Shown piece after piece: positions 7,635-60,249 of a stretch of DNA of 64,000 nt. This DNA comes from Leptolyngbya subtilissima AS-A7. GTDB lineage: Bacteria; Cyanobacteriota; Cyanobacteriia; Phormidesmidales; Phormidesmidaceae. The translations under genes and the position numbers were made by a program. The notes beneath the pieces were generated by a model. It did no database searches. It had not been told where the DNA came from and saw nothing but the letters and a program-made list of their open reading frames with translations. The stretch is from positions 620,001 to 684,000 of the forward strand of contig NZ_JAMPKY010000001.1 of the NCBI RefSeq assembly GCF_039962255.1, read 5' to 3'. How positions within the stretch are numbered: position 1 is the first letter of the stretch; each line of letters opens with the position of its first letter.

Positions 7635-7718
7635 GGTTTTACTGGCTTGACGCCTGCGGCCCATGCCGCTGACTAAGCCTAGCCCATTACCCCTATAAGA
7701 CCGTATGAGACTTACGCC

Positions 7719-8210: not shown

Positions 8211-8237
8211 AGTTTTGCCCCCTAAGCCCAGGCCTCT

Positions 8238-9616: not shown

Positions 9617-10737
9617 AGGGTGTCGCGCTGGCGGGCTGGGCGGCCTAGGCTAGCGATCGCCCCACGCAGTTCCGCCACCGTCATGCAGGTTCCCCCCTGG
9701 GCTCCGGCCATGGTGGTGATGTGCTCTTCCATCAGAGTGCCGCCGATGTCGTTGCAGCCCCAGGTCAACGCCTCAGTAGCACCGCTCAGCCCGAGTTTTA
9801 CCCAGCTGGGCTGATGGTTGACAATCCAGTTACCCAAGTAAATGCGGGCTACTGCCATCAGCAGCAGCGCATCGGACAGCACTGGCTGGTCGTGCCCCAC
9901 TCGGCGGCGCAGGGGCTTAGGGGCCTCCTGGCCCACAAAGGGCAGCACAATAAATTCAGTGATCGCCGCAGAATAGCCCGCCTCTAAAGACTGGCGCTGG
10001 AGCTGACGCAGCTTTTCTAGGTGAATGATTTGCTGAACGGGGGTTTCAATGTGACCCGACAGCATGGTGCTGGTGGTGGGTAGCCCCATCTCATGGGCCA
10101 GCCCCACAATCTCCAGCCAGGTGGCGCTGTCGATTTTCTCGGGGCACAGCACCCGCCGCACCTCATCGTCGAGCACCTCCGCCGCCGTTCCCGGCAGTGA
10201 CCCCACTCCAGCATCCTTAAAGGCCAGCAGCACGTCGCGATAGCTCAGCCCGTCCTGGCGGGCGATGAACTGCACCTCCTGGGGCGAGAAGGCATGCAGG
10301 TGCAGGGCCGGGAACGAGCCCTTGATGGTGTCCACCAGCTTCAGGTAGTAGTTCAGGGAGCGGCCGTTGATTTTGGCGTCAGGGTTCAACCCGCCCTGCA
10401 TACAGATTTCTGTAGCTCCTACAGCAACGGCCTCGGTGGTTTTTTCGAGCATGGGGGCAACGTCGAGCCAGTAAGCCCCCTCCGCTTCGGCATCGCGACG
10501 AAAGGCACAGAAGCTACAGTGTTGCTCACAGATATTGGTGAAGTTAATGTTGCGGTTGACCACATAGGTGACGGTCTCACCCACCTGCCGCTGGCGTAGG
10601 ATGTCAGCCGTGTCGCGAATCGCCGCCAGGGCCGCAGGATCCTGCGGCTGCAAAAGCGCTACACCCTCAGTCGGGGTAATATCGCCACCAGCCAATGCCT
10701 TAGCGAGAATCTGCTCAATTTCCATAGCTGCCAGCAT
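9514..10737 (-). CDS. cofH: 7,8-didemethyl-8-hydroxy-5-deazariboflavin (FO) synthase subunit CofH
   Basis: A radical SAM enzyme acting with CofG to build FO, the deazaflavin chromophore used by F420 enzymes and by some cryptochromes/photolyases in cyanobacteria. The Fe-S motif CEQHCSFC (CxxxCxxC) lies at about residues 70-77 in [19 protein letters not shown], followed by [11 protein letters not shown] and [11 protein letters not shown]. At 407 residues it is slightly longer than typical because of a low-complexity tail rich in Ser/Ala that lies over the convergent upstream gene. No CofG is in the window. An alternative start is the Met at residue 5. Confidence 0.95.
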
Positions 10738-10809
10738 CCACCGTTACAACATCACTTCTTTATTGTGGCGATGGACTGGGTTTCTAGCAGGCAAATTTAT
10801 TTCGCCATC

Positions 10810-10849
10810 AAAAAGCCCGTGTTTCCAAGGCTGGAAACACGGGCTTTTT
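10810..10849. terminator. Bidirectional hairpin terminator between cofH and the epimerase gene
   Basis: Perfect 18-bp inverted repeat: AAAAAGCCCGTGTTTCCA (10810-10827) and its complement (10832-10849) around a 4-base loop. A-run on one side and T-run on the other make a strong intrinsic terminator in either direction. It lies downstream of the minus-strand epimerase gene, whose transcript it most likely ends before the cofH promoter region. Confidence 0.9.
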
Positions 10850-10868
10850 GCCTAAAGCTGACAACTGA

Positions 10869-11927
10869 TTAGCCTTGGGCGACAGGCTCTAGGGTTGGGG
10901 TGGCAGAAGCCTTGGCCAGCATGTCGCTCAGCAGGCACTGGTCGCTAACGCTGCGATCGAGGGCGGTCTCCAGGGTATAGCGAGGGGTCCAGTTTAGCGT
11001 TGTCTTAGCCTTGGCGTTGGTGTAACGAAAGGGCTTTAGTCGCGCATCCAGGCTGGCGGGAATCAGCAGACCCGGCAGGCGCGCCTTGCCCTTGAGCAAT
11101 TGCTGATTCACGAACCAGGCCAAACTGGAGACGCTGCGCATCATACCCCAGGGCATGGGGATGACCTGGGGTGGGTTTTCGGTACGCTTCACCAGGGCTT
11201 TGGTGAATTGGCGGCGGGTGGGCAAATTGTCGTCTACCACGTTGATCACTTCGCCAGCGGCGGCAGCACTGCCCACCGACAGCACAATGGCCTCGGCGCA
11301 GTTTTCGACATAGGTGACAGGAATTAGGGCATTAGGGCCAATGAGCAGCCATTTGGAACCAAAATCGGCCCCGTGGCAAGCGTTCCATAGCGCTTCGCGC
11401 CCGTAGATCATGCCGGGACGAATTAGGGTAACGGTAGCACCGTTGGCGGCGCCCCATTCGCGCATCAGGTCTTCTTGAATCAGCTTAGTTTGGGCGTAGG
11501 CGTCACGATACTCGGGTTCAGACTCGATAGGAAAGGCTTCGTCAATCACCCGATTAGCCGCAGGATTGAAGTAGTCATACACCGAGAAGGTGCTGGTGGC
11601 CACCAACTTTTTCACAGCGGCGGTGGTCATAGCACCCAGCAGGTTTTCGGTGGTGAGCACGGTGCCCGCAAAGCGATCGTAGAAATCGCCGCCCTTCACC
11701 GCCGCCATGTGAATGACGCAGTTAACGTCGCTGAGGGCTTCGGCAATGCCCCGGCCCTGGCGCAGGTCGAGGCGCACCAGCTCCACCGCCGGGTGGTCAG
11801 CCCAGGCCAGACTTGAGGCATCGGCGGCGGGGCGCACCACAGCCTTAACGGTGTAGCCCTGTCGTACCGCCTCAGCCACCACGTACTTGCCTAAAAATCC
11901 CGATGCTCCAGTAATAAACAGCTTCAT
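10869..11927 (-). CDS. NAD-dependent epimerase/dehydratase (extended SDR)
   Basis: A 352-residue extended short-chain dehydrogenase with the Rossmann motif ITGASGFLGKYV at the N-terminus, VIHMAAVKGGDFYD, catalytic-region STFSVYDYF and YAQTKL (YxxxK), and RPGMIYG. Such enzymes act on nucleotide sugars or steroid-like substrates; the substrate here is not evident. Its ATG overlaps the stop of the upstream oxidoreductase gene by four bases (ATGA), so the two form a tight two-gene operon. The next genes on the opposite strand export polysaccharide, which suggests sugar modification (inference). Confidence 0.9.
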   Translation of the reverse strand: MKLFITGASGFLGKYVVAEAVRQGYTVKAVVRPAADASSLAWADHPAVELVRLDLRQGRGIAEALSDVNCVIHMAAVKGGDFYDRFAGTVLTTENLLGAMTTAAVKKLVATSTFSVYDYFNPAANRVIDEAFPIESEPEYRDAYAQTKLIQEDLMREWGAANGATVTLIRPGMIYGREALWNACHGADFGSKWLLIGPNALIPVTYVENCAEAIVLSVGSAAAAGEVINVVDDNLPTRRQFTKALVKRTENPPQVIPMPWGMMRSVSSLAWFVNQQLLKGKARLPGLLIPASLDARLKPFRYTNAKAKTTLNWTPRYTLETALDRSVSDQCLLSDMLAKASATPTLEPVAQG

Positions 11928-12982
11928 ACGCGGTTCTCCTCTGCAAGTAGGGTTTCGATTAGTCGGTTGGTTTTGTCCATATCTTCAAAGCTCACCGGCA
12001 TGGGCCGATTGTGAAGAATGGCAGCATAGGTCTGGTCGAGCAAGCGGTGCAGGCCCTCGTAAGGGGTGCGCTGCATGACTTTGTTGCGGAAGTTTTTGAC
12101 GCTGGAACCCATCAAGTCCCACCCGTTGACGAAGTGGTTGATCAGCGGTGACAGTTGCTCACCCCCGGCCCGAGGAATCACGGTGCGTAGGTAGGGCTGA
12201 AACAGGTCGGTTTCGGCGTAGCCTCGGCTACCTCTGACGAATAGAGTAAAACACTCAGGTTTGGTGTAGCAGGTAAACCGCAGGCGGGCGTGCTGCTGGC
12301 CGTTGAGCAAAATGGCATCAAGGTCATCGTACTTAAATAGATCGCCGCCCCCGTGGTTGCTCCAAGCTGCTGCGACTCGGTCTACCTCGGGCATAAACCG
12401 CAGCAGCAGATAGGCCATGTGGGTAATGACGTCGTGCACGACTCCAGCGGGCAGCTTGTGTACAGGGTTGGGCAAGTTGCGATCGGCAAATCGCCCACCT
12501 GCCTCGCGGTAGCCTAGGGCAACACGCACTTCGACCTCTTGCACCTCGCCTAGAGCACCGTCTTTGACCATCTCCTCAATTTTGAGAATGGCTTCGTTAA
12601 ACCGGTAGTTGTGGTTTTCGATCAGGTACAGGTTTTTCTCTTGAGCCAAATGCCAGAGGGTTTTGAAATCCTCATAGGTGGGCGTAATTGGCTTTTCGCA
12701 GATCACGTGAGCTTGGGCATTGAGGCAGTCAGTAACTAACTTTTGGTGAGTGTTCGGCGGGGTCAAGATGTGAACCACGTCAGGCTTGGTTTCCGCCAGC
12801 ATGGCCTGGTAATCGGTGAAGGCTTGGCCAGCATGAAATGTCTCAGCGGCGTACTTAGCGGCGGCGGCAGATAGATCGCACACCCCGACTAGCTCGCTGT
12901 GGTCAGAACTATCTAAAAAGCTCAAATGTTGTTTGGAAATAACGCCGGTACCAATGACCGCAGCCTTTAGAGATTTACCCAT
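11924..12982 (-). CDS. Gfo/Idh/MocA family oxidoreductase
   Basis: From the ATG at 12982 this gives 352 residues. The N-terminal NAD(P) domain has AAVIGTGVISKQHLSFL; the family EKP motif is in VICEKPITPTYEDF; the C-terminal alpha/beta domain carries GVVHDVITHMAYLLLRFM with the catalytic-type His. Substrates in the family are sugars, inositols or nucleotide sugars; none can be assigned. It is coupled to the epimerase by an ATGA overlap. A TTG six codons upstream (13000) could also start it, but MGKSLKAAVIG is the usual form. Confidence 0.92.
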   Translation of the reverse strand: MGKSLKAAVIGTGVISKQHLSFLDSSDHSELVGVCDLSAAAAKYAAETFHAGQAFTDYQAMLAETKPDVVHILTPPNTHQKLVTDCLNAQAHVICEKPITPTYEDFKTLWHLAQEKNLYLIENHNYRFNEAILKIEEMVKDGALGEVQEVEVRVALGYREAGGRFADRNLPNPVHKLPAGVVHDVITHMAYLLLRFMPEVDRVAAAWSNHGGGDLFKYDDLDAILLNGQQHARLRFTCYTKPECFTLFVRGSRGYAETDLFQPYLRTVIPRAGGEQLSPLINHFVNGWDLMGSSVKNFRNKVMQRTPYEGLHRLLDQTYAAILHNRPMPVSFEDMDKTNRLIETLLAEENRV

Positions 12983-13396
12983 TGAAGATACCTGTAGCAA
13001 GCCAGCTAAAACTAATCATAGAGATGTATCTAGACGGACAATTGAGCTACGCAAGGCTGAGTTTTACCCACCCCTAACTGGTGTACAGGCTATACGGCTG
13101 AACCAACAACGTGGGAAAAGCAAGAAATATTGCCAAGAAATTCAAATCTGTAGTTACACCGTAAAGTTTTTGCAAACTGCCGTACATACAAACTGAAGCT
13201 CGGTTGCCCCACCCCCAAGAGAGAAACTGGCGATGCGTCTGGTTATCGGCAACCTGCTCTGGAAGGTGCAGCAGAGGCAAGTTCAAAATCAGCGACTTTC
13301 TTCCCACGAGGCTGCGCCGAACCCTGTCCCACTGCTAGAAAAATGGGTCAATATTGGGTATTCGTCTACTGCGATCGCGTCCCTACGGTTAAGGCT
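12983..13396. other. Divergent intergenic region upstream of the oxidoreductase and OPX genes
   Basis: About 410 bp separating two divergent transcription units. It is richer in A/T than its neighbours, as expected for paired promoters. A TTGCAA at 13170-13175 could be a -35 element, but no matching -10 is convincing. Short open frames on both strands show no Shine-Dalgarno site or recognisable product and are not called. Confidence 0.4.
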
Positions 13397-14545
13397 ATGG
13401 TTTTTTGTGGTTTGGCCAGAGGCTATAGGTCTGGGGCGGCCGTCCAGAGGCTAGGGCGCTGGGGTGGTCTGACGGGCATTTGGTTGGTAATTGCGATCGC
13501 CCCAGCGATCGCCCAGACTCCACCAGCGGCCTTACCCGATCGCCTCCCAGGTTCTAGCTTGAGGCTAGAATCCGAGAGCCTAGACAATGTCTTTAATGAC
13601 TACCGCCTGGGGCCTGGAGACGGCATTTTTGTCAGCGTGCAGCGGTTTCCCGACCTGAGCTTTCCGGCCACCCTCGATATTCAGGGCAACGTGGTGCTGC
13701 CCCTAGCCGGCACCCTCAACCTCACCGGGCTCACCCTAGAAGAGGCTCGCGAAACAATTTTCGACCTCTACAACCAATACGTGGTCAATCCCGATGTATC
13801 GGTGATTCTCACCACCCAGCGCCCAGTGGAGGTGACTGTGGTAGGCGAGGTACCCCGTCCAGGGTTTTACCCCTTGCAGGCTCCGCAACTATCGGTGGCG
13901 CTGCTGACAGCGGGGGGCTCTACTACCCTTGCAGATCTGCGGCTAGTGCAAGTGGATCGGCCACTAGAGGGCGGTGACGTACTGTCGCGCACCATAGATT
14001 TGTTCACCCCCCTCCTTCAAGGTGAGCCCATTCCGCAGGTGCGGCTCCAGGATGGCGATGTGGTCACGGTGCCCCGTCTGGCCCCGGAGGACGTGGAGAG
14101 CTACGATCGCGCCCTAGTGGCCAGCTCAACCTTGGCCCGGCCTGAGATCACCATCCGAGTGCTCAACCGAGCCGCAGGGGCGCGGGGCGGAGAAGCCCGC
14201 TTTGGCGCCATTAATCTGCGCAACGGCAGCCGCTTTTTAGACGCGCTGGCCGTGGCAGGGGTTAACCCGGATGTAGCTGCCTACAACCGCATTGCCGTGC
14301 TGCGATTTAACCCCGAAACCGGCTCGGCCGATACGATTACGGTCAATGCGACGGCGGCGGTAAATGGCGATTTGAGCCAGAACATTCCCCTTCAGGAAAA
14401 CGACATTCTGGTGGTTGACCGCAACCTGCTAGCGCGGGTCAGTTATGCTCTCAATACCTTTACTCAGCCCTTTCGCGATGTCCTGGGCTTTTTGCTCTTT
14501 TTTGACTCACTGACCGATTCAGCAGACTCGTTATTTAGACCCTAG
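13397..14545 (+). CDS. Polysaccharide export outer-membrane protein (Wza-type OPX)
   Basis: An exported protein with an N-terminal hydrophobic signal (GGLTGIWLVIAIAPAIAQ), a polysaccharide export domain (YRLGPGDGIFVSVQRFPDLSF...VVLPLAGTLNLTGLTLEEARETI), and SLBB-type repeats (VEVTVVGEVPRPGFYPL...; IRVLNRAAGARGG...). It ends with a hydrophobic helix (FRDVLGFLLFFDSL). OPX proteins form the outer-membrane channel for capsule or slime, working with a Wzz/Wzc-type partner, which is the next gene. The ATG at 13397 gives 382 residues and a more normal signal peptide; the frame is open to 13343. Confidence 0.92.
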   Translation: MVFCGLARGYRSGAAVQRLGRWGGLTGIWLVIAIAPAIAQTPPAALPDRLPGSSLRLESESLDNVFNDYRLGPGDGIFVSVQRFPDLSFPATLDIQGNVVLPLAGTLNLTGLTLEEARETIFDLYNQYVVNPDVSVILTTQRPVEVTVVGEVPRPGFYPLQAPQLSVALLTAGGSTTLADLRLVQVDRPLEGGDVLSRTIDLFTPLLQGEPIPQVRLQDGDVVTVPRLAPEDVESYDRALVASSTLARPEITIRVLNRAAGARGGEARFGAINLRNGSRFLDALAVAGVNPDVAAYNRIAVLRFNPETGSADTITVNATAAVNGDLSQNIPLQENDILVVDRNLLARVSYALNTFTQPFRDVLGFLLFFDSLTDSADSLFRP

Positions 14546-14550
14546 GGTCT
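14537..14550. promoter_or_regulatory. 14-bp perfect palindrome across the OPX stop codon
   Basis: AGACCCTAGGGTCT covers the OPX stop codon and ends 18 bases before the next ATG. It could form a small hairpin in the intercistronic mRNA or be a protein-binding site. Function is unknown. Confidence 0.4.
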
Positions 14551-14568
14551 TGGACCCTGAAAACGGCA

Positions 14569-16749
14569 ATGGTTTCTCCTTTTGTTAAGCGCTATCTGCT
14601 GGCCCTAGACCGCTACAAGTGGCCTAGTTTGGCAACCCTGCTGGGGACTTTGGGTATTTCGGCGGTGGTGGCCGTGCAGCCGCCGCCGCCGCCGCTGTAC
14701 CGGGCCGAGGGGGTGCTGGTGCAAAATGCGCCAGTTGTTGCTCTAACCACCACCGGAACTGAGGTGCAGCAGCGGGGTCAGGGCATTATTTCGGAGGAAT
14801 TCCTGCTGGCCGACGTGCTGCTTCAGCAGGTGTCCCAGGAATTGGAGCGGCGGGGGATTTCGATGGATCCTGAAACCCTGCGCTACCGCACCACGGTCAA
14901 GCTAGAGGGAGAGGAAAACGTGGTGCAGCGGGTCACAGTCACCTTTCGCGGGGCCGACGAAGAGCAGACCCAGCTCACCCTCAGCCTGCTGTTTGAGGCC
15001 ATGGTGGAGCTGAGCCGAGTAACCAACCGGGCCAGAATTGGGGCTATCGTGACGGCGTTAGACGAGCGTCTGCCCGCTGTGGAGGCTGACCTCCGGGCTG
15101 CCGAACAGGCCCTCGAAGCCTACGATCGCACCGAAGGCCCAGCTATCCAAGCAGCTCTTGACGGCAGTCTATTAGGGGCGATCTCGGGCGGGCAGCAGCA
15201 GCAGCGCCAGAACCAACTCGCCCTGGCGGGGCTCGACTCCCAAATCCAAAGCCTCCAGCAGCAGCTGGGGCTGACGCCAGGGCAGGCATTTACCGCCTCG
15301 GCCTTGAGCGCTGACCCAATTATTGCCCAGCTGCGATCGCAGATTTTAGAGAGCGAAACCCAGCTCAAGCTGCTGTCGGCCACCCTGCGCGAGTCGCACC
15401 CCACCATTCAAGATCTGCGCCAGAATCTGACCGCCTACAACGCCCTGTTAGCCGAGCGCGCCCAGGAGGTGATTGGGGGCCAAGACTTAGCCGCCCTGCC
15501 CAGCGTTAGCGAAGTGCGCCAAAACAGCACCCTCGATCCGGCTCGCGCCGCCCTGGCCAACCAGCTGGTGACCCTCAGCGCCCAGCGAGCCGCCCTGGCC
15601 AGCCAGCAGCAGGTGCTCAGCCAGAGCGATGGCCAACTGCGCCAGCAGTACTCCAGCCTGCCCAACAAGCAACTAGAGCGCAACCGTCTCGCCCAGCAGG
15701 TCGCCCTCAACCAGGCCCTCTACGACCAGATTCAAGCCAAACGTATTGATGCCCAGGCCGCCGAGGCCGAGACCGCCAGCAGCCTCACCGTCGCCCAACC
15801 ACCCACCACGACGCTCCAGGCCGACCCACCCACCAGCCCCGTCGTGGTTATGGCCGTGGGCGGCTTACTAGGGATTGTTGCCGCCGGAGCCGTGGCCTTT
15901 TTGCTCGATCTGCTCGACAGTACCGCCCGCACCCCCGAAGACCTCCAAGGCATTCTTACCGATCAAGATGTGCCGGTGCTGGGGCTAGTCCCGGCTCTGG
16001 CAGCTACCTCCTCCCAGGGCTGGCCGATTCTCTACCAGCCCCAAACTCCCGACCTTGAAATCTACGAGCGACTGCGCAGCAGCCTGCGGCGGGCCGGCAG
16101 CCTGTCTGAGGCTGGGGCACCCCCACGGGTGGTGCTAGTAGTCAGCAGCCGGTCGGGGGAAGGTAAAACCACCAGCGCCTTTAACCTAGGCATTGCCGCC
16201 GCCCGCGCCGGACGCCGGACCCTGATTGTCGAAGCCGACCTGCGCCAGCCCTCTTGCGGTCAACGGCTAGGAGTCAAGCTCAACCCAGCCGCCATCTCTG
16301 AACCGCTGCACTACTATGCTGGGCGGCAGCAGGAGCCAATTCAGCTCGCGCCCTGGGTTGAAAACCTGTACCTAACTTCTAGCCCGGGCCCCCAGCCCCA
16401 CCCAGCAGCGATTTTAGAATCGAGCGAGATGGGGCAATTTTTGACCGATGCTCGCGCCCGATTTGACCTGGTGCTGATCGACGCGCCGCCCCTAGGCAAC
16501 AGCAACGACGCCCTGCTCCTCGGGGCCGCCAGCGATGGGCTACTGCTAGTGACCCGCCCCGGCTACACCGACAAAGCAGTGCTAGAGGCTTTGTTAGAAC
16601 AGTTGTTAGAAAATGAAGACCTGCCGCTGCTAGGTGCGATCGTTAATGCCGCCGATCGCACCACCACCCCGTCTGCCACCATTCCCCCAACCGATAGTGC
16701 CACCGTCACCCCCGCCCCCCAGCCCCTAATTCGCTCCATCGACTTTTAG
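14569..16749 (+). CDS. Polysaccharide co-polymerase/BY-kinase (Wzz-Wzc type) for exopolysaccharide assembly
   Basis: A 726-residue inner-membrane protein. N-terminal TM (about 19-37), Wzz-type periplasmic domain with a long coiled coil rich in Gln/Ala (about 150-400), second TM (about 425-446, VVVMAVGGLLGIVAAGAVAF), and a cytoplasmic kinase domain with Walker A VVSSRSGEGKTTSAFN (about 525), Walker A' LIVEADLRQPS and Walker B DLVLIDAPPL. BY-kinases control chain length and export of polysaccharide with an OPX partner, here the preceding gene. The C-terminus has no tyrosine in the last 50 or so residues, so the usual autophosphorylated Tyr cluster is missing; ATPase function may remain. Confidence 0.93.
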   Translation: MVSPFVKRYLLALDRYKWPSLATLLGTLGISAVVAVQPPPPPLYRAEGVLVQNAPVVALTTTGTEVQQRGQGIISEEFLLADVLLQQVSQELERRGISMDPETLRYRTTVKLEGEENVVQRVTVTFRGADEEQTQLTLSLLFEAMVELSRVTNRARIGAIVTALDERLPAVEADLRAAEQALEAYDRTEGPAIQAALDGSLLGAISGGQQQQRQNQLALAGLDSQIQSLQQQLGLTPGQAFTASALSADPIIAQLRSQILESETQLKLLSATLRESHPTIQDLRQNLTAYNALLAERAQEVIGGQDLAALPSVSEVRQNSTLDPARAALANQLVTLSAQRAALASQQQVLSQSDGQLRQQYSSLPNKQLERNRLAQQVALNQALYDQIQAKRIDAQAAEAETASSLTVAQPPTTTLQADPPTSPVVVMAVGGLLGIVAAGAVAFLLDLLDSTARTPEDLQGILTDQDVPVLGLVPALAATSSQGWPILYQPQTPDLEIYERLRSSLRRAGSLSEAGAPPRVVLVVSSRSGEGKTTSAFNLGIAAARAGRRTLIVEADLRQPSCGQRLGVKLNPAAISEPLHYYAGRQQEPIQLAPWVENLYLTSSPGPQPHPAAILESSEMGQFLTDARARFDLVLIDAPPLGNSNDALLLGAASDGLLLVTRPGYTDKAVLEALLEQLLENEDLPLLGAIVNAADRTTTPSATIPPTDSATVTPAPQPLIRSIDF

Positions 16750-16798
16750 CAGGGTAAGCCGATAGGGTAGGATCGTAGGCTGTAGCGTCTAGGAACGT

Positions 16799-16804
16799 TA
16801 AGGA
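16799..16804 (+). promoter_or_regulatory. Shine-Dalgarno site deciding the pdxJ start
   Basis: AAGGAG sits eight bases before a TTG at 16813. This supports TTG initiation of pdxJ, whose protein begins there in the family-typical way ([14 protein letters not shown]). Confidence 0.75.
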
Positions 16805-16812
16805 GCGATCGC

Positions 16813-17523
16813 TTGCCTACCCTGGGAGTCAACATCGACCACATTGCCACGATTCGCCAGGCCCGTCGCACCGTTGAGCCCGACCCTGTGGCCGCAGCGG
16901 TGCTGGCCGAGCTAGCCGGTGCCGATGGCATCACCGTGCACCTGCGCGAAGATCGTCGCCACATGCAAGACCGCGACGTGCGCCTGCTGCGGCAGACTGT
17001 GCGCACCCACCTAAATTTGGAGATGGCTGCCACTGACGAAATGGTGGCGATCGCCCTCGACGTCAAACCCGACTACGTCACCTTGGTGCCCGAGCGGCGC
17101 GAGGAAGTCACCACCGAAGGCGGGTTAGATATCGCCGGCCAGACCGATCGGATGAAATCCGTAGTTAACACCCTTCAGAGCGCCGGCATTCCAGTCAGTC
17201 TATTTATCGACGCCGCCACCGACCAAATTGAGGCTTCAGCCCAGGTCGGTGCCCAGTTCATCGAGCTGCACACCGGGCCCTACGCCGAGGCCAAAGCAGA
17301 AGCCGACCTCCACCGCGAACTCGACATTCTCGCCCAGGGAACGGCCCAGGCGATCGCCCTCGGCCTGCGAGTCAACGCCGGCCACGGCCTCACCTACTGG
17401 AACACCACCCCCGTCGCCCGCATCCCCGGCATGGAAGAGCTCAATATCGGCCACAGCATCGTCAGCCGCGCTGTACTAGTGGGCCTAGAGCGCGCCGTCC
17501 GCGAGATGAAAGCGCTGATTTAG
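16813..17523 (+). CDS. pdxJ: Pyridoxine 5'-phosphate synthase
   Basis: PdxJ condenses 3-amino-1-phosphohydroxyacetone phosphate with deoxyxylulose 5-phosphate to give pyridoxine 5'-phosphate, the last ring-forming step of vitamin B6 synthesis. Signatures: [70 protein letters not shown] and INAGHGL-like [11 protein letters not shown]. The 236-residue length is normal. It begins at a TTG with a good AAGGAG site. ycf54 follows after about 77 bp. Confidence 0.97.
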
Positions 17524-17553
17524 GGCGAGGGACAAGAAGTTTTGACTCTTCAC

Positions 17554-52213: not shown

Positions 52214-53299
52214 ATGGCAACAGCAACGGTAGGGCTATTGTTTGGCGGCTGCTCAGGGGAGCACGAGGTATCGATTCGCTCGGCTCAGGCGATCGCCCGC
52301 GCCCTGGCCAGCGGCAGCAATGCCCAAAAATACACCGTGCTGCCGGTCTACATTCGCAAAGACGGCGTTTGGCAGGCTGGATCTAGCGCTGAGGCGGTTC
52401 TGACCGCTGGTGTGCCCCCCCAGGATATGCCCGACGCGCCAGCCGCCACCGCCCGCGATCGCCTACCTCAGTTTGATCAGATAGCTGACATTGACATTTG
52501 GTTCCCGGTGCTGCACGGTCCCAACGGCGAAGACGGCACGGTGCAGGGCCTCTTGACCCTGATGCAGCAGCCCTACGTCGGTGCTGGGGTGCTGGGATCG
52601 GCGGTGGGGATGGATAAAATTGCCATGAAAACGGCCTTTGCCCAGGCCGGGCTGCCCCAGGTGAAGTACCTGGCGGTGAGCCGGGCAGAGGTATGGTCCA
52701 ATCCCTGCGTGTTTCCGAAGCTGTGCGATCGCATCGAAACCGAGCTGGGCTACCCCTGCTTTGTCAAACCCGCCAACCTGGGCTCGTCGGTGGGCATTGC
52801 CAAAGCCACCAACCGCAAAGAGCTAGAGGCCGCTCTCGACAATGCCGCCAGCTACGATCGCCGCATTATCGTCGAAACCGGAGTGGTCGCCCGTGAGGTA
52901 GAGTGCGCCGTGCTGGGCAACGACAATCCCAAGGCTTCAGTGCTGGGCGAAATCACCTTTCAAAGCGATTTCTACGACTACGAGACCAAATACACCAGCG
53001 GCCAGTCGCAGCACACTATTCCAGCCCAAGTGCCCGAAGCGATCGCCCGCCGTATTCAAGAGATGGCGATTACGGCGTTTCAGGCGGTGGATGCTGCCGG
53101 CATCTCGCGAGTCGATTTCTTTTACGTAGAAGCTACTGGAGAGGTGCTGATTAACGAGATCAACACCCTGCCGGGGTTCACCGCTACCAGCATGTACCCA
53201 ATGATGTGGGAGGCCAGCGGCGTCGGCTTTGAGGAACTGGTAGACACCCTGATTCAGCTAGGATTTGAGCGCACCGGCAGCAGCCCAGCTCAGAACTAG
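52214..53299 (+). CDS. ddl: D-alanine--D-alanine ligase
   Basis: An ATP-grasp enzyme making D-Ala-D-Ala for peptidoglycan. 361 residues with [25 protein letters not shown] at the N-terminus, [67 protein letters not shown], and [40 protein letters not shown] at the end. A GAGG site precedes the ATG. It is a single gene. Confidence 0.98.
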
Positions 53300-53675
53300 G
53301 CGTTCACGGCTTAGTCGTCCGGCAACGACGGCTTAGACCCAACTCTGCTTGGTTAAACCTCGGTTTAAAAGGGCGAATGCCATAGAGCCTCTGGCTCGGC
53401 TACGCCTACGCACCTACGGTTCCACCCTTTGAGACTTGGGATTATGTAATGCGGATCTAGTACTAGAGGTAACGTCCAAGCTTCGGGATTTAGGTATTCT
53501 CCAGGCCTTGCACCCTATTCTCTGCTGCAACTTCACAGCTGTTGAGAATGAGTGGCTTTCACCCTAGGGGCGCTGCCGACAGCAGAGGCTTTTGTATCAA
53601 AAATAACAATCAAGGGGGAAGGCCTGGGGCAGCATACCCTTGAGGGTGCCTAAAATGGGCACCGGGGCTAACCTC
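53300..53675. other. 376-bp gap between ddl and the response regulator
   Basis: No gene is supported. Visible structures are a direct repeat CGGCTTAG at 53309 and 53328 region flanking a GTCGT/ACGAC dyad, and a palindrome TTAAACC-TC-GGTTTAA at 53353-53368. A purine-rich AAGGGGGAAGG block lies at about 53612-53622. The upstream end next to ddl may hold its terminator, but no U-run hairpin was found. Confidence 0.35.
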
Positions 53676-54353
53676 ATGCGTGTTTTGCTGGTAGAAGACG
53701 ACGGACGCCTGGCCGACTCCCTGGCCGAGATCTTGCTGGCTCAGCGCTACATTGTTGACTTTGCCCGCGATGGCGAAGCCGGGTGGAACCAGATCAGCGC
53801 GATCGCCTACGACCTGATTTTGCTCGATGTCACTCTACCGAAGCTCGATGGCATGGGGCTATGTCGGCGGATGCGCGATCGCGGTCTCACCACCCCTGTG
53901 CTTATGCTCACCGCCCGCGACACCAGCTCCGACAAGGTCATGGGCCTCGATGCCGGGGCCGATGCCTATATGGTCAAACCCTTTCATCTAGAAGAACTGC
54001 TGGCCCAGGTTCGCGCCCTACTGCGGCGAGGCCAAACCAGCTTTACCCCAGTGCTGAGCTGGGGTGCCCTCATCCTCGACCCCAGCAGCTATGAGGTCAG
54101 CTACAATCACGCCCCCATTCACCTCACGCCGAAGGAGTTTGCCCTGATGGAGGCGCTGCTGCGCTATGGGCGACGGGTGCTGAGCCGCAGTGCGATCTTG
54201 GAGCACATTTGGACCTGGCAGGAAGCCCCCAGCGAAGACACCATCAAAACCTATATCAAAAACCTGCGCGCCAAGCTCAAGGCCGCTGGAGCCCCTAAGG
54301 ATGTAATTGAAACGGTGCACGGGCTGGGGTATCGACTGAGGGCGATCGAGTAG
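53676..54353 (+). CDS. OmpR-family response regulator
   Basis: A 225-residue transcription factor from the ATG at 53676 (the frame is open to 53640, but family members begin MRVLLVEDD). Receiver: MRVLLVEDDGRLADSLAEIL, phospho-Asp in YDLILLDVTLPKLDGMGL, Lys in AYMVKPFHLEELLAQ; then a winged-helix DNA-binding domain (YNHAPIHLTPKEFALMEALLRYGRRVLSR...EDTIKTYIKNLRAKLKAAG...YRLRAIE). It sits directly upstream of an ABC transporter operon that ends facing a CHASE histidine kinase, which could be its partner. Confidence 0.95.
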   Translation: MRVLLVEDDGRLADSLAEILLAQRYIVDFARDGEAGWNQISAIAYDLILLDVTLPKLDGMGLCRRMRDRGLTTPVLMLTARDTSSDKVMGLDAGADAYMVKPFHLEELLAQVRALLRRGQTSFTPVLSWGALILDPSSYEVSYNHAPIHLTPKEFALMEALLRYGRRVLSRSAILEHIWTWQEAPSEDTIKTYIKNLRAKLKAAGAPKDVIETVHGLGYRLRAIE

Positions 54354-54427
54354 AGAGCGATCGTCCAAGGCAAGGTCTACAGCGTGCATAGAGGGAATTA
54401 GCCTCGACTCAAAAAAATCACCATAGC

Positions 54428-54461
54428 CAGATCTAGGGATTTTCAAAATCTCTGGTTTTTT
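54428..54461 (+). terminator. Terminator of the OmpR-type regulator gene
   Basis: Two-part stem (outer CCAGA/TCTGG, inner GATTTT/AAAATC) with a bulge, followed by TTTTTT, about 75 bases after the regulator stop. Confidence 0.6.
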
Positions 54462-54479
54462 AATAAGAATTATTGTTGT

Positions 54480-54510
54480 AAGGAACCGCCTATATTCTCC
54501 CCGGTTCCTT
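54480..54510. promoter_or_regulatory. 9-bp dyad AAGGAACCG/CGGTTCCTT
   Basis: A perfect inverted repeat separated by 13 bases, 159 bp before the binding-protein gene, not followed by a U-run. Its position and symmetry suit an operator for the ABC operon. Confidence 0.4.
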
Positions 54511-54668
54511 CACCAATTAACCCTTAAAAACTCCCCGTTGAGTCTGTAGATTTAGTTCCCAAGTTCTAACGGTTTAGGCATCAAGTTATTCCTTGGATTA
54601 GAAAGTATTAATTATTTTCTGTATCCGTTGATGCAATCGTATCGCAATTTTGGGAATTTGTGAAAACC

Positions 54669-55685
54669 ATGGTGAATATTTGCAGGCGACATTTTCTTCA
54701 ACTCAGCGTAGGGGCAGGGTTGGCCGTGGCCGCCCATGCCTGTAGCCAGCCCCAGTCAAAGGTTGCCCAGGGGGACGGCAGTGAATCTCCGGGTAAAATC
54801 GCGATCGGTTTCTGGCCGGTGGCATCAGGGCTGCCACTGTTCGTAGCGGTAGAAAAAGGCTACTTTCAAGAGGCAGGTTTAGAGGTGGAAGCGGTCAAAT
54901 TTGCCAACCCCAACCAGGTGGCTGAGGCACTAATTGCCGGACGGTTGCAGGGCACAGGCAATGGTGTCGCCAGTGGGGCATTAGGCTTGGCAGAAATCAC
55001 CTCGCCGGGGCTGTTTAAGATTCTGACCTCTAACCCCAGCAACGTTGATTACGTCCTCGATCAGGTGATTGTGGGACAAGATAGCGATATTAAAACAATT
55101 CAAGATCTCAACGGCAAAGCCTTTGCTACCGGGCCAGGGGCGCAAAATTTAGCGATCGCAGAAGCCATTCTCAACGCTGCTGGGGTAGCTGACCCCAAGG
55201 TGCAGCAGCTTGAGATTAGCCAGCACGTAGCGGCGATCGAATCGGGGCAAATTGACGCCGCCTACACCCTAGAGCCCACTGGCACAGTGGGGGCCGTCAA
55301 GGGCATTACCCGCGTACTCGAAAACGGTGTCGTGTCGAAGTACATTCTGGGTGATGCCAAAGCGCCCTGGTTCGGAGGTTCCGCTGCCCTCAGCAGCAAG
55401 TTCGTAGGGCAGTATCCCGAGACCACAGCAGCCTACGCCGAAGCCTACCGCCGCGCCGTGCAAGACATTCGCGACAACCCCACTGAGGTGCGCCAGTATC
55501 TCACGGGCTACACCGCCATTGAGGGCGAGTTGGTAGAAAAGGTGCCTCTGGTGGGCTACACCATGTACGACGAATTCACCCCAGAAGACATCGCCTATTT
55601 CCAAAAATACTTCGACTTCATGACCGAAAAGAAAATTTTCTCGCGCCCCATTGATGTAGCCGCGCTGATGTACAAACCCGCTTAA
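54669..55685 (+). CDS. ABC transporter substrate-binding protein, predicted Tat-exported lipoprotein
   Basis: A 338-residue binding protein of the SsuA/NMT1 type (nitrate/sulfonate/taurine/pyrimidine-precursor group). The N-terminus has a twin-arginine motif followed by a hydrophobic stretch and a lipobox (CRRHFLQLSVGAGLAVAAHAC), so export through Tat and lipid anchoring is predicted. The mature part has KIAIGFWPVASGLPLFVAVEKGYFQEAGLEVE and NPNQVAEALIAGRLQGTGNGVASG, GKAFATGPGAQNLAIAEAILNAAGV and TLEPTGTVGAVKG. A GTG at 54660 could also start it. First gene of a three-gene ABC operon. Confidence 0.93.
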   Translation: MVNICRRHFLQLSVGAGLAVAAHACSQPQSKVAQGDGSESPGKIAIGFWPVASGLPLFVAVEKGYFQEAGLEVEAVKFANPNQVAEALIAGRLQGTGNGVASGALGLAEITSPGLFKILTSNPSNVDYVLDQVIVGQDSDIKTIQDLNGKAFATGPGAQNLAIAEAILNAAGVADPKVQQLEISQHVAAIESGQIDAAYTLEPTGTVGAVKGITRVLENGVVSKYILGDAKAPWFGGSAALSSKFVGQYPETTAAYAEAYRRAVQDIRDNPTEVRQYLTGYTAIEGELVEKVPLVGYTMYDEFTPEDIAYFQKYFDFMTEKKIFSRPIDVAALMYKPA

Positions 55686-55745
55686 GCCAACAACCCATAG
55701 CAGATTTAGAGCAACTTAAACTCTTCAGCAAGCAGAAGACTACCC

Positions 55746-56540
55746 ATGATGCTCGATACTCAACCCAATCAAGCGATCGCACCCCCTGAACACTTTGTCT
55801 CAGTCAAAGGACTCTGCAAATCCTTCGGCAATGCCGTTCTATACGACAACTTCAACCTCGATCTGCCCAGCAACCAGCTGGTGTCGGTCTTTGGCCCCAA
55901 CGGCTGCGGCAAATCGACGCTGATCAACATGATCAGCGGCCTCACACCCTTCGATTCAGGGGAAATTTTGATCCACGACAAGCCGATTCGCCGCGCCCGC
56001 ATTGGCTACGTGTTTCAGAACTACCGGGAGGCGATGCTGCCCTGGCTTAGCGCTTTTGACAACATTGCCTACCCACTGCGGGTGAAGGGGGTGCCCGAGG
56101 CGGAATGCCGCGATCGCGTTGAAACCCTAATTCAAACTTTCAACATTCAGCTCGATCTTAAGCGCTACCCCTACAGCTTTTCGGGGGGGCAACAGCAGCT
56201 GATTTCGATCATGCGGGCGCTGGTGGCCGACCCAGAGGTGTTGTTTTTAGACGAGCCCTTCTCGGCGCTGGATTTTGAAACCACGCTATTTGTGCGCGAC
56301 AAGCTCCAAGAGATTTTTGAGACCACCAAAATTCCCATGTTTATGGTGGTGCACAACCTAGAAGAGGCGGTGTTTTTAGCCGACACGGTGCTGCTGCTCA
56401 GCAAGCGCCCCACCCGCCTAGTGGAAATGGTGTCGTTCAACGCGCCGCGCCCCCGCACCCTCGACACTCTATCTTCGCCAGAGTTCATTGAGACCAGCCG
56501 CCATTGCCTAGATATCTTTCGCCAGGAGATGCGCAAATGA
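55746..56540 (+). CDS. ABC transporter ATPase (SsuB/NrtD-like)
   Basis: A 264-residue ATPase: Walker A VFGPNGCGKSTLINMISGL, Q-loop YVFQNYREAMLPWLSAFDNI, signature SFSGGQQQLISIMRAL, Walker B VLFLDEPFSALD and H-loop MFMVVHNLEEAVFL. The signature is FSGGQQQ rather than LSGGMRQ, and the Q-loop region REAMLPW matches ATPases of the nitrate/sulfonate group. It follows the binding-protein gene after 60 bp and its stop overlaps the permease start (ATGA). Confidence 0.95.
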   Translation: MMLDTQPNQAIAPPEHFVSVKGLCKSFGNAVLYDNFNLDLPSNQLVSVFGPNGCGKSTLINMISGLTPFDSGEILIHDKPIRRARIGYVFQNYREAMLPWLSAFDNIAYPLRVKGVPEAECRDRVETLIQTFNIQLDLKRYPYSFSGGQQQLISIMRALVADPEVLFLDEPFSALDFETTLFVRDKLQEIFETTKIPMFMVVHNLEEAVFLADTVLLLSKRPTRLVEMVSFNAPRPRTLDTLSSPEFIETSRHCLDIFRQEMRK

Positions 56541-57343
56541 CTACTACCCTCTTAAAACCCCAGCGCCGCGCTATGGGCCGCCCGTTCCTGCAAAATCTGG
56601 ATCGATTGTTGCCCCTAGTGGGGGTGGGGGTAATGTTTGGTCTCTGGTGGTTAATCGCCGTGTCGGGCTGGGTCAACCCGGTGCTGCTGCCCACTCCCTG
56701 GGCCACCTTGGGCACTCTCGTCACCGCCATGACCACCGGGGATATGTTCACCGACTTTTTTGCCAGCGTGGTGCGCACCTTTAGCGCTTTTGCGCTGGCG
56801 GCGGTGGTGGGCGTGCCCTTGGGGGTGCTGCTGGGCAGTTCTGAAAAGCTCTATCGCAGCGTGGAATTTTTGATCGACTTCTTTCGCTCGACCCCGGCCA
56901 GCGCGCTGATTCCTATGTTCATTCTTTTCTTTGGAGTGAGCGATTTTTCGAAGGTGATTATTGCTGCCTTTAGTGCTCTGCTGCTGATTGTGTTTAACAG
57001 CGCCTACGGGGTGCTGAATGCCCGTCAGTCGCGCATTTTGGCGGCTAAGGTGATGGGGGCCAACCGCTGGCAGGTATTCAAAGACGTGCTGGTGATGGAG
57101 AGCCTGCCGCAGACCTTTATCGGCCTGCGCAGCGGCATCAGCATCGCCCTGGTGATTGTGATTGTGGCGGAAATGTTTATCGGTACAGAACTGGGGTTGG
57201 GTAAACGGATTATCGACGCTCAGCAGGTGCTGAATGTGCAGGATATGTACGCATCGATTTTGATTACTGGGCTGCTGGGCTACGCGCTGAACGTGCTGTT
57301 TTTGCTAGGCGAAAAGCGCGTGATTCACTGGAGCGGTAAGTAG
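56537..57343 (+). CDS. ABC transporter permease (SsuC/NrtB-like)
   Basis: The ATG at 56537 overlaps the ATPase stop by four bases (ATGA), giving 268 residues with six hydrophobic helices. The family EAA-like coupling loop is VMGANRWQVFKDVLVMESLPQTFIGLRSGISIAL. A typical N-terminal part PLVGVGVMFGLWWLIAVSGWVNPVLLPTPWATLGTLV matches binding-protein-dependent permeases of the nitrate/sulfonate/taurine class. The operon ends with the terminator at 57428-57453. Confidence 0.95.
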   Translation: MTTTLLKPQRRAMGRPFLQNLDRLLPLVGVGVMFGLWWLIAVSGWVNPVLLPTPWATLGTLVTAMTTGDMFTDFFASVVRTFSAFALAAVVGVPLGVLLGSSEKLYRSVEFLIDFFRSTPASALIPMFILFFGVSDFSKVIIAAFSALLLIVFNSAYGVLNARQSRILAAKVMGANRWQVFKDVLVMESLPQTFIGLRSGISIALVIVIVAEMFIGTELGLGKRIIDAQQVLNVQDMYASILITGLLGYALNVLFLLGEKRVIHWSGK

Positions 57344-57427
57344 AAAGACTGGATGGGCGATCGCCGCTAGTGTTTGTGAGCAGGCTCATCTGGGGATACT
57401 AGCGTTGACATGGAAAGAGGTTTGAGA

Positions 57428-57453
57428 GGCCAGGACAACCCTGGCCTTTTTTT
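57428..57453. terminator. Terminator between the ABC operon and the convergent CHASE kinase
   Basis: GGCCAGG and CCTGGCC form a perfect 7-bp stem around ACAAC, followed by seven T on the plus strand. It ends the ABC operon; the kinase gene on the minus strand ends 7 bp away. Confidence 0.9.
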
Positions 57454-57459
57454 GTGGAT

Positions 57460-59229
57460 TTACTCTAGGGGTAGCTGCACCGTTACGCTGGTACCCTCGC
57501 CCTTGGCGCTGTCGATGTGCCAGGTGCCTCGGTGCAGGGTGACAGCTGTGTGAACGATCGCTAACCCCAGCCCGCTGCCAGGCCTGTCGCCCACGTTGCT
57601 GCCCCGCTGAAAGGCCTCGCGAATACAGGCAAGGTCAGCGGTAGGAATGCCCCGGCCGCGATCGCGCACCGTGAGCGTCGCCATCTCGCCACAGCAGCTC
57701 AGGAAAACTTCGATGGGCTGACCTTCAGAGGAATAGTTGGCGGCGTTGAGCAGCAGGTTGGTGAGCAGCGATTGCCCCAGTCGCCGATCCCAAAAGGCTT
57801 TGATTGGCTCAGGTGGGTAGCTAAAGCTGAGGGACTGACTCACCTGGGGCTGCACCTCATCGATCACCTGCTGGCAAAATTGAACCGCGTCTAGCAGTAC
57901 CGGGTTAAATTCCAGCTTGCCCGCCTCGGCTCGGGTGAGGGTGAGCAGGTCGGCGATCTGCTGCCCCATGTGCCGAGCCGTGAGCAAAATGCGATCGAGT
58001 TTGGTCTGGGCCGAGCCTGCCTGCGATCGCGCCACATCCTCTTGCAGCGACTCTGCCGACAGCAAAATGGTGCTCAAGGGCGTGCGCAGCTCGTGGGAAG
58101 CCATGGAAAAGAACCGCAGTTTTAACTCTCCAAGCTGCCGAGTGCGAACCAGTTCGGCCTGTAGGTTGTGCAGAAATAGAGCCAAGCTGCCGGTTAGCAA
58201 TAGCCCGGTTAGCAGGGTGAGCGGTGCGCCGTAGCTGCGGCGCAGGCCGTAGGCGGTAGCGGGGGCAAATACCACCTGCCACTGGCGCTGGCCTAGGGTC
58301 AGCAGGCGGGTGCAGTCTGCTGGGCGAGGGCACACTGCTGGGTGGGGTTGCACCAAACTGGTTGGCCCGGCTACTACGGTTTTGCCCGCCGCCTCGTACT
58401 GACCCAAAAACTGCTGTTCTGACGAAGCGTTTTGGTCATAGAGGGCAAAATCAATCTCATAGCTCAGCGGTTGCAGCACCTCCTCAACTACATCTGCCAC
58501 GCGAAACACCCCCAGCAAAATGCCGGAAAACTTGGCCTCGCGGGTTGGCTGATCGGGGGGCACGACCCCATTGGAGTAGAGCGGCAGCACCACCAAAAAG
58601 CCAAACTGGTCGCGCGGCTCTTGCACCAGGCGAATGCGCTCGGTGGCCATGATTTTGCCGCTGGCCCGAGCCGGGGCAATGGCGGCGGCCCGCGTAGCAC
58701 CGGAGCTGAGATCGTAGCCCAAGGCCGCCTCATTGTTGAGAAATGGCGCGACGTAGGTGACGGGAATGTATTCTGCCCGCTCTTTGGCCCGCTGTAGCCG
58801 ATTTTCTGGCGATAATTCAGTAATTTCAAAGTCGGGATAGCCCTCGGCCTGCACCCTGGCCTCAAAGGCGGCGCGATCGCCCTGGCGCACGAGCGGAGCC
58901 CACTCCAACGCTTGAATGCCAGGGTAGGTGGAGAGCGATCGCGCCACAAACCTAGCGAAGTCTTGGCGAGATACAGGTTCCTCGGCCACCTGGTAGTAGT
59001 TGTACAAAAAGGTCAGCACGTCGGTGTAGCGGTTGAGACTGCGCTGTAACGCCGTGGACAGATTCTCGATTTGCTGCTGAAACTGCGCCTGTCGCCGCGA
59101 GGCCTCCCATTGACTGACCAGCCAAGCCGCTCCCACCGATAGCCCGATGCCCAGGCCTAGGGTGAGTCCCATAATCACTGGGTAGCGCACCGAAGAATTA
59201 GGAAAAACGTCTTTCAAAGCCGCATCCAA
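57460..59229 (-). CDS. CHASE-domain sensor histidine kinase
   Basis: A 589-residue membrane kinase. TM1 (about 19-39), extracytoplasmic CHASE domain (about 75-290: FARFVARSLSTYPGIQALEWAPLV, YPDFEITELSPENRLQRAKERAEYIPVTYVAP, EAALGYDLSSGATRAAAIAPA...), TM2 (about 335-355), HisKA (FFSMASHELRTPLSTILLSAESL, about 377) and HATPase_c (LLTNLLLNAANYS, VRDRGRGIPTAD, GDRPGSGLGLAIVHTAVTLHRG). CHASE domains sense small extracellular ligands. The gene converges on the ABC operon whose other side carries an OmpR regulator, so a kinase-regulator pair around the transporter is likely. Confidence 0.95.
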   Translation of the reverse strand: MDAALKDVFPNSSVRYPVIMGLTLGLGIGLSVGAAWLVSQWEASRRQAQFQQQIENLSTALQRSLNRYTDVLTFLYNYYQVAEEPVSRQDFARFVARSLSTYPGIQALEWAPLVRQGDRAAFEARVQAEGYPDFEITELSPENRLQRAKERAEYIPVTYVAPFLNNEAALGYDLSSGATRAAAIAPARASGKIMATERIRLVQEPRDQFGFLVVLPLYSNGVVPPDQPTREAKFSGILLGVFRVADVVEEVLQPLSYEIDFALYDQNASSEQQFLGQYEAAGKTVVAGPTSLVQPHPAVCPRPADCTRLLTLGQRQWQVVFAPATAYGLRRSYGAPLTLLTGLLLTGSLALFLHNLQAELVRTRQLGELKLRFFSMASHELRTPLSTILLSAESLQEDVARSQAGSAQTKLDRILLTARHMGQQIADLLTLTRAEAGKLEFNPVLLDAVQFCQQVIDEVQPQVSQSLSFSYPPEPIKAFWDRRLGQSLLTNLLLNAANYSSEGQPIEVFLSCCGEMATLTVRDRGRGIPTADLACIREAFQRGSNVGDRPGSGLGLAIVHTAVTLHRGTWHIDSAKGEGTSVTVQLPLE

Positions 59230-59247
59230 CCGCAGGGTAATGCCCCA

Positions 59248-60249
59248 TTATCTCTGACTGAGCCATCCCAGACCTGCTATGACGGCTACGCCGAGGCCAG
59301 TCCACAGCAGGAAAGCGTAGCGGGTGAGGGCAAGGGCAGCAAGGATGCGATCGCCTGTAATCGGCATCACCGCATCCCCCAGCAGCGGCTTCTCCTTCAC
59401 CTGCCCCCTATAAGTATTCCGTCCGCCCAGTTGCACCCCTAGAGCGGCGGCGTAGGCGCACTCGCTCCACCCGGCGTTGGGGCTGGGGTCTGCTGGGGCA
59501 TCGCGGCGACATAGCGCCCAAACTTGCCAGGGCCGACCCGAGAGCAGGGCAATGGTGAACACCGTCAGACGGCAGGGTAGCCAGGTTAAAGCATCTTCAA
59601 AGCGGGCGCTAAACCAGCCCACGTGGGTGTAGGGCGCTTCTCGGTAGCCAACCATCGAATCTAGCGTGCTAGCCCCTTTATAGGCTAGAGCCACAGGCAC
59701 GCTGCCCAGCGGCAGCAAGGCCCCCACCAGAGCATAAAACAGCGGCGCCATCACCCCATCTGTGGCGTTCTCGCTCACGGTTTCTAGCACGGCTCGCAAT
59801 ATTTCGGGCTCGTCCAGAGCTGCGGTGTCGCGGCCTACATAGAGGGCGAGACGCTCCCGCGCCAGGGAAATATCGCCCGACTCCAGCGGGGCCAGCACAT
59901 CTGCCGCTGCCCGCCGCAGGCTGCGCCCGGCAAAGCAGCTAGCCAAGAGCACAACTTCGCAGCCCATTCCAGCAACAGGGTGAAACATCCCGCTCAGGCG
60001 CACCATGCTCCACCCGACCACTCCACTGCTGAGAATGACGCTCAGCCCCAGCATGACGCCCAGCGATCGCTCCCCACCCGGCGGCAGCTTAAGGCGAAAA
60101 ATGCTCTGCGAGCCCCAGGTAATCGCCTGGCCGATCGCCTGCACCGGGTGAGGCCAGCTCCAGGGGTCGCCGACGATGCGATCGAGCCCAGCCGCCAGCA
60201 CCACCACCGTTACCTGCTCGGCCCAGTTAAACCATAAAGCTGACATCAT
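59248..60249 (-). CDS. cbiB: Adenosylcobinamide-phosphate synthase
   Basis: CbiB (CobD) attaches aminopropanol to adenosylcobyric acid in cobalamin synthesis. The ATG at 60249 follows AGGGGG directly and overlaps the end of the Rrf2 gene, giving 333 residues; a Met one codon later is equally possible. Signatures: LDRIVGDPWSWPHPVQAIG, YVGRDTAALDEPEILRAVLETVSENATDGVMAPLFYAL, AYKGASTLDSMVGY, GWFSARFEDALTWLPCRL and PSPNAGWSECAYAAALGVQLGG. About eight membrane helices. No cobalamin riboswitch was recognised near it, consistent with it being read from the Rrf2 transcript. Confidence 0.94.
   Translation of the reverse strand: MMSALWFNWAEQVTVVVLAAGLDRIVGDPWSWPHPVQAIGQAITWGSQSIFRLKLPPGGERSLGVMLGLSVILSSGVVGWSMVRLSGMFHPVAGMGCEVVLLASCFAGRSLRRAAADVLAPLESGDISLARERLALYVGRDTAALDEPEILRAVLETVSENATDGVMAPLFYALVGALLPLGSVPVALAYKGASTLDSMVGYREAPYTHVGWFSARFEDALTWLPCRLTVFTIALLSGRPWQVWALCRRDAPADPSPNAGWSECAYAAALGVQLGGRNTYRGQVKEKPLLGDAVMPITGDRILAALALTRYAFLLWTGLGVAVIAGLGWLSQR

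Follow-up and report, generated by a model that had tools for sequence, protein, structure and literature searches.

A regulator and a kinase flanking an importer operon

The window, meaning the whole 64,000-nucleotide stretch of Leptolyngbya subtilissima AS-A7 DNA analyzed here, carries a five-gene locus in which an OmpR/PhoB-type response regulator (RR) precedes the three genes of an ATP-binding cassette (ABC) importer and a convergent CHASE sensor histidine kinase (HK) faces them from the other side (Table 1). This arrangement was described in an earlier reading of the sequence, referred to below as the original prediction, and all five genes lie where that reading placed them. The RR combines a receiver with a winged-helix effector domain, as OmpR/PhoB-type regulators do, although it misses the cut-off of the RppA equivalog model NF041734 (221.6 vs 250 bits). 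The HK combines CHASE, HisKA and HATPase_c domains, all above their cut-offs, and thus belongs to the CHASE histidine kinases. The importer begins with an NMT1-type binding protein (SBP), and its three genes are read as one operon because the permease start codon overlaps the ATPase stop codon. Comparison with other genomes shows that the arrangement is conserved and indicates that it is regulated as a unit, and it is probably a dedicated two-component switch for the uptake of purine- or ureide-class nitrogen with exchangeable importers. No published description of the locus or of its promoter box was found in the literature searched, which lies mostly outside the subscription journals. Labels beginning with L and G below denote loci and genomes of the comparison.

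Table 1. Features of the locus (window coordinates) and AH_C-like open reading frames (ORFs) of comparison loci (locus coordinates)
Feature	Position	Strand	Evidence
OmpR/PhoB-type response regulator (RR)	53676..54353	+	PF00072 92.7 bits, PF00486 84 bits, both above cut-off
Dyad left arm, inverted arm of box (partner 54502-54510)	54480..54488	+	sequence, arm covariation
Tandem box, candidate RR binding site; units 54496-54502, 54507-54513, 54518-54524, 54530-54536	54496..54536	+	22-promoter alignment, matrix test
-10-like hexamer TGTAGA (by eye)	54545..54550	+	same offset in aligned promoters
NtcA-like site GTA-N8-TGC	54621..54634	+	GTA-N8-T(A/G)C in 19/22 promoters, 1.8 expected
NMT1/SsuA-like binding protein, Tat motif + Cys	54660..55685	+	PF09084 66.8 bits (cut-off 20.5); fold
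Binding protein, alternative start	ATG at 54669	+	
ABC importer ATPase	55746..56540	+	PF00005 109.2 bits
ABC importer permease	56537..57343	+	PF00528 70.5 bits
CHASE sensor histidine kinase (HK)	57460..59229	-	PF03924 173.3, PF00512 54.4, PF02518 79.9 bits
AH_C-like ORFs	L125 9777-10175, L239 7577-8101		family models
AH_C-like ORFs	L161 1900-2331, L130 16991-17377, L133 12486-12902, L138 12989-13378		blastp

Searches of 388 genomes of the class recovered the HK in 50 (E<=1e-90), a match to the RR in 189 (E<=1e-80) and the SBP in 30 (E<=1e-60). The pairing of regulator and kinase can be computed directly from the places of the RR matches listed: the two genes lie within 5.5 kb of each other in 38 of the 50 HK-bearing genomes, with or without a window-type importer, and are convergent in 35 of these, divergent in two and codirectional in one. 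Ten further genomes, mostly drafts, have their listed RR matches on other contigs or, in G259, an RR whose place is not listed. The two genes share a contig yet lie far apart in just two genomes, namely G124, where the HK sits at a contig end, and G233, where it has an inner stop. RR and HK distances also agree closely (Mantel r 0.906 over 35 pairs, reached by none of 2000 permutations), an agreement that also reflects species kinship. Both the close spacing and this correlation support the predicted partnership, and the wide separation of kinase and regulator that had been named as grounds for abandoning it is seen in the two genomes mentioned.

The full gene order is less widespread. Of the 30 SBP genomes, 14 have RR, SBP, ATPase, permease and convergent HK (families f1, f3, f24, f28 and f34; in one of them, G045, the HK spans a contig break), and G034 and G040 keep the importer with a divergent HK next to the RR. 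The other 14 differ, so the full order is kept in about half of the SBP genomes.

Some loci hold additional or damaged genes. Read by eye, a transposase-like gene lies between RR and HK in L120 (10202-11557, G046), and a large CheB/CheR/PAS hybrid kinase occupies the same place in L121 (6264-10523, G057); because the L121 row was this hybrid kinase rather than the HK, the HK tree was built without it. G233 (L101 8963-14287; L164 8289-10067) has the appearance of a decaying system, with a broken SBP frame, a transposase-like insert (by eye) splitting ATPase and permease, the interrupted HK and an RR located elsewhere, yet its SBP gene retains the promoter box.

The promoter element ahead of the importer genes

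The stretch ahead of the SBP gene, or ahead of the NCS2 permease gene that takes its place in some relatives, aligns without gaps in 22 loci. It contains a box of tandem TCTYCMC-like units spaced 11-12 bp apart, with an autocorrelation peak at lag 11, followed by a -10-like hexamer. The box is common to all three importer types associated with the pair: the NitT-type ABC importer of the window, the NCS2 permease and an SBP_5/Dpp-type ABC importer. A weight matrix built from the 22 RR-SBP and RR-NCS2 promoters gave no score above 15 bits in 2,871,604 shuffled positions. This matrix places the box ahead of 16 of 18 SBP_5 operons, none of which had been used in building it, and in none of 809 control ORFs of the same loci; the two misses are G213, which has a core match about 480 bp upstream, and G011. 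An enlarged SBP_5 set gives 21 of 23, a figure biased upward because L222, L223, L224 and, in part, L230 were chosen for a core match. The NCS2 promoters (7/7) and SBP promoters (16/28) were scored in sets that include the training loci. A cruder three-unit score passes 22/23 SBP_5, 7/7 NCS2, 20/28 SBP and 1/16 BMP promoters (G124), against 26/860 controls. Among SBP genes unlinked to an RR, only that of G233 (L101) passes by matrix, with L095, L099 and L100 scoring 2.7 to 9.7 and the others negative, whereas L095, L098, L099, L100 and L101 pass by the three-unit score. Control of the BiuH operon through the box was considered as well and rejected, as the matrix finds it in 0/16 BMP promoters and the three-unit score singles out G124 alone.

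The rarity of the element is likewise a direct count. Its core occurs without mismatch 47 times in the 50 HK genomes, 38 of which have a match, as against three times for the reversed pattern. Eight of the 47 matches have neither an importer nor a BiuH operon nearby, and at four of these (L221, L227, L228, L229) the matrix detects no box. Within the window's genome, the window promoter is both the sole mismatch-free match and the only site scored by the matrix, and with up to two mismatches allowed there is no enrichment (25 matches vs 26 for the reversed control).

It is very likely that the RR controls the importer through this box. In the proposed mechanism, the CHASE HK and the OmpR-type RR would form one two-component system in which a periplasmic signal leads the HK to phosphorylate the RR. 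The RR would then bind the tandem units together with the inverted arm upstream of them, and binding would activate the importer operon; on sequence grounds the box is a candidate site only, and we likewise infer activation rather than repression. Tandem 11-bp repeats through which an OmpR/PhoB-type two-component system controls an importer are known from the pho box. The window system resembles pho-box-type systems in its regulator and kinase domains and in having tandem units, spaced 11-12 bp, ahead of a -10-like hexamer, but differs in its CHASE sensor, its unit sequence, its single genomic target and its exchangeable importers.

The original prediction had the regulator act through a dyad at 54480-54510. 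The dyad is exact, with AAGGAACCG at 54480-54488 and CGGTTCCTT at 54502-54510, and it amounts to an inverted arm overlapping units 1 and 2 of the box. The region it named is very probably right, but the conserved element is the four tandem units and the hexamer. Across the 22 promoters, the two arms form Watson-Crick pairs at 124 of 198 positions, compared with 109.9 +/- 3.5 when the right arms are redealt (1 of 2000 shuffles as high); the shuffle leaves kinship in, and nine of the 22 rows pair at most 4-5 of nine positions. Some pairs in relatives are G-U. An RNA hairpin is nevertheless not favoured, since the best conserved part is a tandem repeat ahead of a -10-like hexamer. An Rfam scan of 53200-60000 returned no match.

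Farther downstream, 19 of the 22 aligned promoters have a GTA-N8-T(A/G)C motif 72-100 bp past the box, and the upstream regions of SBP_5 operons have it in 13 of 23 cases (3.0 expected), mostly as exact GTA-N8-TAC. According to the excerpt of PMC3898017 used here, NtcA-activated promoters carry the consensus GTAN8TAC centred near -41.5 and then a -10 box. The NtcA-like site may add general nitrogen control to the local switch.

Importer exchange and the class of substrate

Replacement of the importer at the regulator-kinase pair is observed directly; neighbours were labelled by blastp to reference ORFs and by eye, with family models for selected proteins. A 472-aa pbuX-type NCS2 permease fills the space between RR and HK in G042, G023, G024 and G271, the last on a contig that is possibly contamination (5% reported). 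The outer flanks in G042 (glyoxalase-like, D-Ala ligase, cbiB, Rrf2 and AbrB-like genes) are those of the window, so the exchange between importer and NCS2 occurred in place. G005, G048, G047 and G001 have the RR, then an NCS2 gene of the same type, then the contig end, and all seven NCS2 homologues of at least 70% identity among 63 genomes of the order directly follow the RR. With the pbuX model TIGR03173 (cut-off 414.15), the NCS2 of L111 scores just under (406.3) and that of L148 over (420.3). In the HK tree, one supported clade contains NCS2 and ABC loci intermixed. Support at its inner forks is weak, and the window's clade has a second NCS2 lineage (G005, G048) as its sister, so either cargo may have come first. 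For most HKs outside the supported clade no gene intervenes between RR and HK, and most have an SBP_5-DppB-DppC-ATPase-ATPase operon adjoining the HK or a few kb off. In these relatives, the same switch would drive a non-homologous importer, either the NCS2 xanthine-type permease or the SBP_5/Dpp-type ABC importer. In L093 (G189), a 196-aa ORF resembling the N-terminal part of NCS2 (5631-6221) lies between the ABC permease and the HK, a hint that a single locus may formerly have held the two cargo types.

One regulator-kinase pair and one box beside three unrelated uptake systems suggest that all three importer types carry the same kind of nitrogen-rich compound. The same diversity, together with SBP_5 models that describe peptide and nickel types, would also fit correct wiring in which the cargo types carry different substrates and the HK perceives a general cue of stress or nutrient status, with each importer serving it differently. 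This is unlikely: a core that occurs once without mismatch in the window's genome and a box absent by matrix from all control genes fit a dedicated switch, and the companions AH_C, BiuH and NCS2 share nitrogen-rich substrates.

The original prediction held that the substrate cannot be read from the sequence, which appears too pessimistic, as the replacing importers and the enzymes beside SBP orthologues point to purine/ureide-type nitrogen. Four lines lead in this direction, though none proves the substrate. The first is the NCS2 exchange itself. Second, an NCS2 match (E<=1e-100) occurs in one of eight genomes with an RR-linked importer but in 42 of 55 others of the order (p 9e-4), and within the genus in 1/8 against 14/18 (p 3e-3), both without correction for kinship. 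Third, SBP orthologues elsewhere have the biuret hydrolase BiuH (414.5 bits, cut-off 370), BMP-Nup genes and AH_C as neighbours. They lie inside the BiuH cluster in G043, G207 and G271, with a formamidase (584.8, cut-off 406) nearby in G207 and G271 but not in G043. The G157 orthologue (L100) adjoins BMP, NupC and AH_C genes on a contig without BiuH, that of G081 an AH_C gene, and that of G348 AtzE (710.3, cut-off 461) and AtzH/HpxZ (133.3, just under 135). In the remaining cases, the stretch around the SBP lacks importer partners (G241, G084, G276), no BiuH-, AH_C- or AtzE-type neighbour was seen (G225, G082), the SBP is broken (G233), or it stands at a contig end (G310, G124). Fourth, the window's genome encodes xdhA (490.1, cut-off 467), xdhB (1026.7, cut-off 849.5), BiuH (417.8, cut-off 370) and two AH_C genes, its BiuH/BMP-Nup cluster lying about 235 kb from the RR/HK-linked importer. 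A BiuH-type match (E<=1e-40) is present in 30/30 SBP genomes against 145/358 others, and BiuH over its cut-off in 27/30 against 119/358, again without correction for kinship.

In nitrifiers, the part of PMC12625717 consulted ties BiuH and BMP-Nup clusters to purine breakdown products, and triuret is thought to arise from uric acid oxidation (PMC7948467, in excerpt). Compared with the biuH / bmpA-nupABC clusters in that part of PMC12625717, the cyanobacterial ones likewise contain BiuH, a second isochorismatase and BMP-Nup genes, but a NitT-type importer joins them in some genomes, whereas in the window's genome it stands apart from the cluster with the RR/HK pair. The importer would accordingly bring in bases of the xanthine or urate type, or products of their breakdown, for instance ureides of the biuret type, as a nitrogen source, and a purine/ureide-class substrate is moderately probable. 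More broadly, when the sequence of an importer does not name its substrate, the candidates can be narrowed by asking which other importers take its place behind the same switch.

Several observations weigh against a purine/ureide switch. A mismatch-free core is missing from 12 of the 50 HK genomes, several of which have a degenerate box by matrix, and the matrix finds no box in any of the 16 BiuH-cluster promoters, with units in G124 by the simpler score. The NtcA-like site of the RR-linked ABC group mostly has TGC rather than TAC as its right half, which makes NtcA binding a suggestion only, and its TAN3T spacing is irregular. The NCS2 and BiuH correlations are uncorrected for kinship. SBPs within BiuH clusters form a clade separate from the RR-linked SBPs, so their substrate may differ, and peptides or nickel, for which SBP_5 families generally are named, do not obviously suggest purines or ureides.

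The binding protein itself is a member of the NMT1 family from a NitT/TauT-type importer, as its domain, its type II binding fold and the ATPase and permease of its operon indicate. In fold it comes closest to SsuA-like proteins (2x26_A, Z 27.6) and its best NCBIfam model is SsuA_fam, which would favour an ordinary SsuA/TauA/NrtA-type importer for sulfonate, taurine or nitrate under a local two-component system. This reading is very improbable. Scores fall far below cut-off for SsuA TIGR01728 (aliphatic sulfonate; 95.3 vs 163.5 bits), taurine-binding TIGR01729 (22.5 vs 304.25) and nitrate ATPase TIGR01184 (140.6 vs 291.8); no sulfonate enzyme was noticed by eye beside the listed orthologues, where amidohydrolases are present. 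The fold comparison yields numerous relatives of nearly equal rank and does not reveal the substrate, and the next best ATPase and permease models, SaoA and SaoP, are also far below cut-off. The window importer shares family and fold with the NitT/TauT ABC importers (SsuA, TauA, NrtA/CmpA, ThiY) but reaches the cut-off of none of the NCBIfam subfamilies listed.

The sensor domain, secretion signal and neighbouring genes

The CHASE domain weakly matches the cytokinin receptors PcrK (6k62, E 5e-8) and AHK4 (3t4j, E 2e-6). An Asp matching the adenine-binding residue of AHK4 in the alignment is present in 41 of 42 kinase rows, the remaining row being a wrong ORF. This conserved Asp fits a purine-like ligand but, as a motif that may be general for CHASE domains, does not test for one. 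The HK thus resembles PcrK and AHK4 in weak sequence match and in this Asp, and differs from them in having as partner an OmpR-type regulator beside an importer. To our knowledge, few CHASE kinases outside the cytokinin receptors have a known signal. A bolder and rather doubtful extension would make the CHASE domain a receptor for purine-type or ureide nutrients, with one regulator and one box having recruited at least three unrelated importer families by cargo exchange. If so, the sensing of cytokinin, an adenine derivative, by CHASE kinases would be a variation on nutrient-purine sensing. Since the kinase, the regulator, the controlled importer and a specific DNA box can all be named here, and the importer is swapped for a xanthine-type permease in sister genomes, the list of candidate ligands is short and the signal of the HK becomes testable.

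The original prediction regarded a twin-arginine motif joined to a lipobox as uncommon for this class of binding protein. The twin-arginine motif and a Cys are present, and the motif occurs with H-[AGS]-C in the window protein and in 20 of 26 aligned homologues, but the A-H-A ahead of the Cys is no textbook lipobox. The trait is also ordinary, for at least three further binding proteins of the window's genome (L001, L004 and the 366-aa ORF of L237) look alike by eye, with a twin-arginine motif and a later Cys.

On its other side, the HK gene begins 18 bp behind cbiB, which in turn overlaps an Rrf2-type gene; the three share the minus strand, so in the window's clade the HK may be co-transcribed with both. 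That the HK functionally belongs to this group and faces the importer by chance is the most improbable of the readings, for although the HK is also near cbiB in L079, L080 and L111, in L112 and in the loci of other families it has the RR, not cbiB, beside it, and RR and HK stay close across the 38 genomes counted above. An infC (IF-3-like) ORF, recognized by eye, occupies the slot between permease or NCS2 and HK in L079, L082, L111, L112 and L147; the window has no such ORF there, the permease and HK stops being 117 bp apart.

Other clusters carry related genes. L141 (G023, 7372-17540) contains a related NitT-type importer, with an SBP about 30% identical. Its neighbours are an isochorismatase, a CN hydrolase of the nitrilase type and, by eye, a subunit of nitrile hydratase, and the importer is perhaps one for nitriles. 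In L237, from the window's genome (C9:172000-191999), another NitT-type ABC importer, a glutamine synthetase of type III and, by eye, a Rieske-type ORF lie about 10 kb from xdhA, xdhB and a gene of the XdhC type. Small ORFs resembling the allophanate hydrolase C-terminal domain (AH_C) recur beside HK, SBP_5 or BiuH operons (Table 1).

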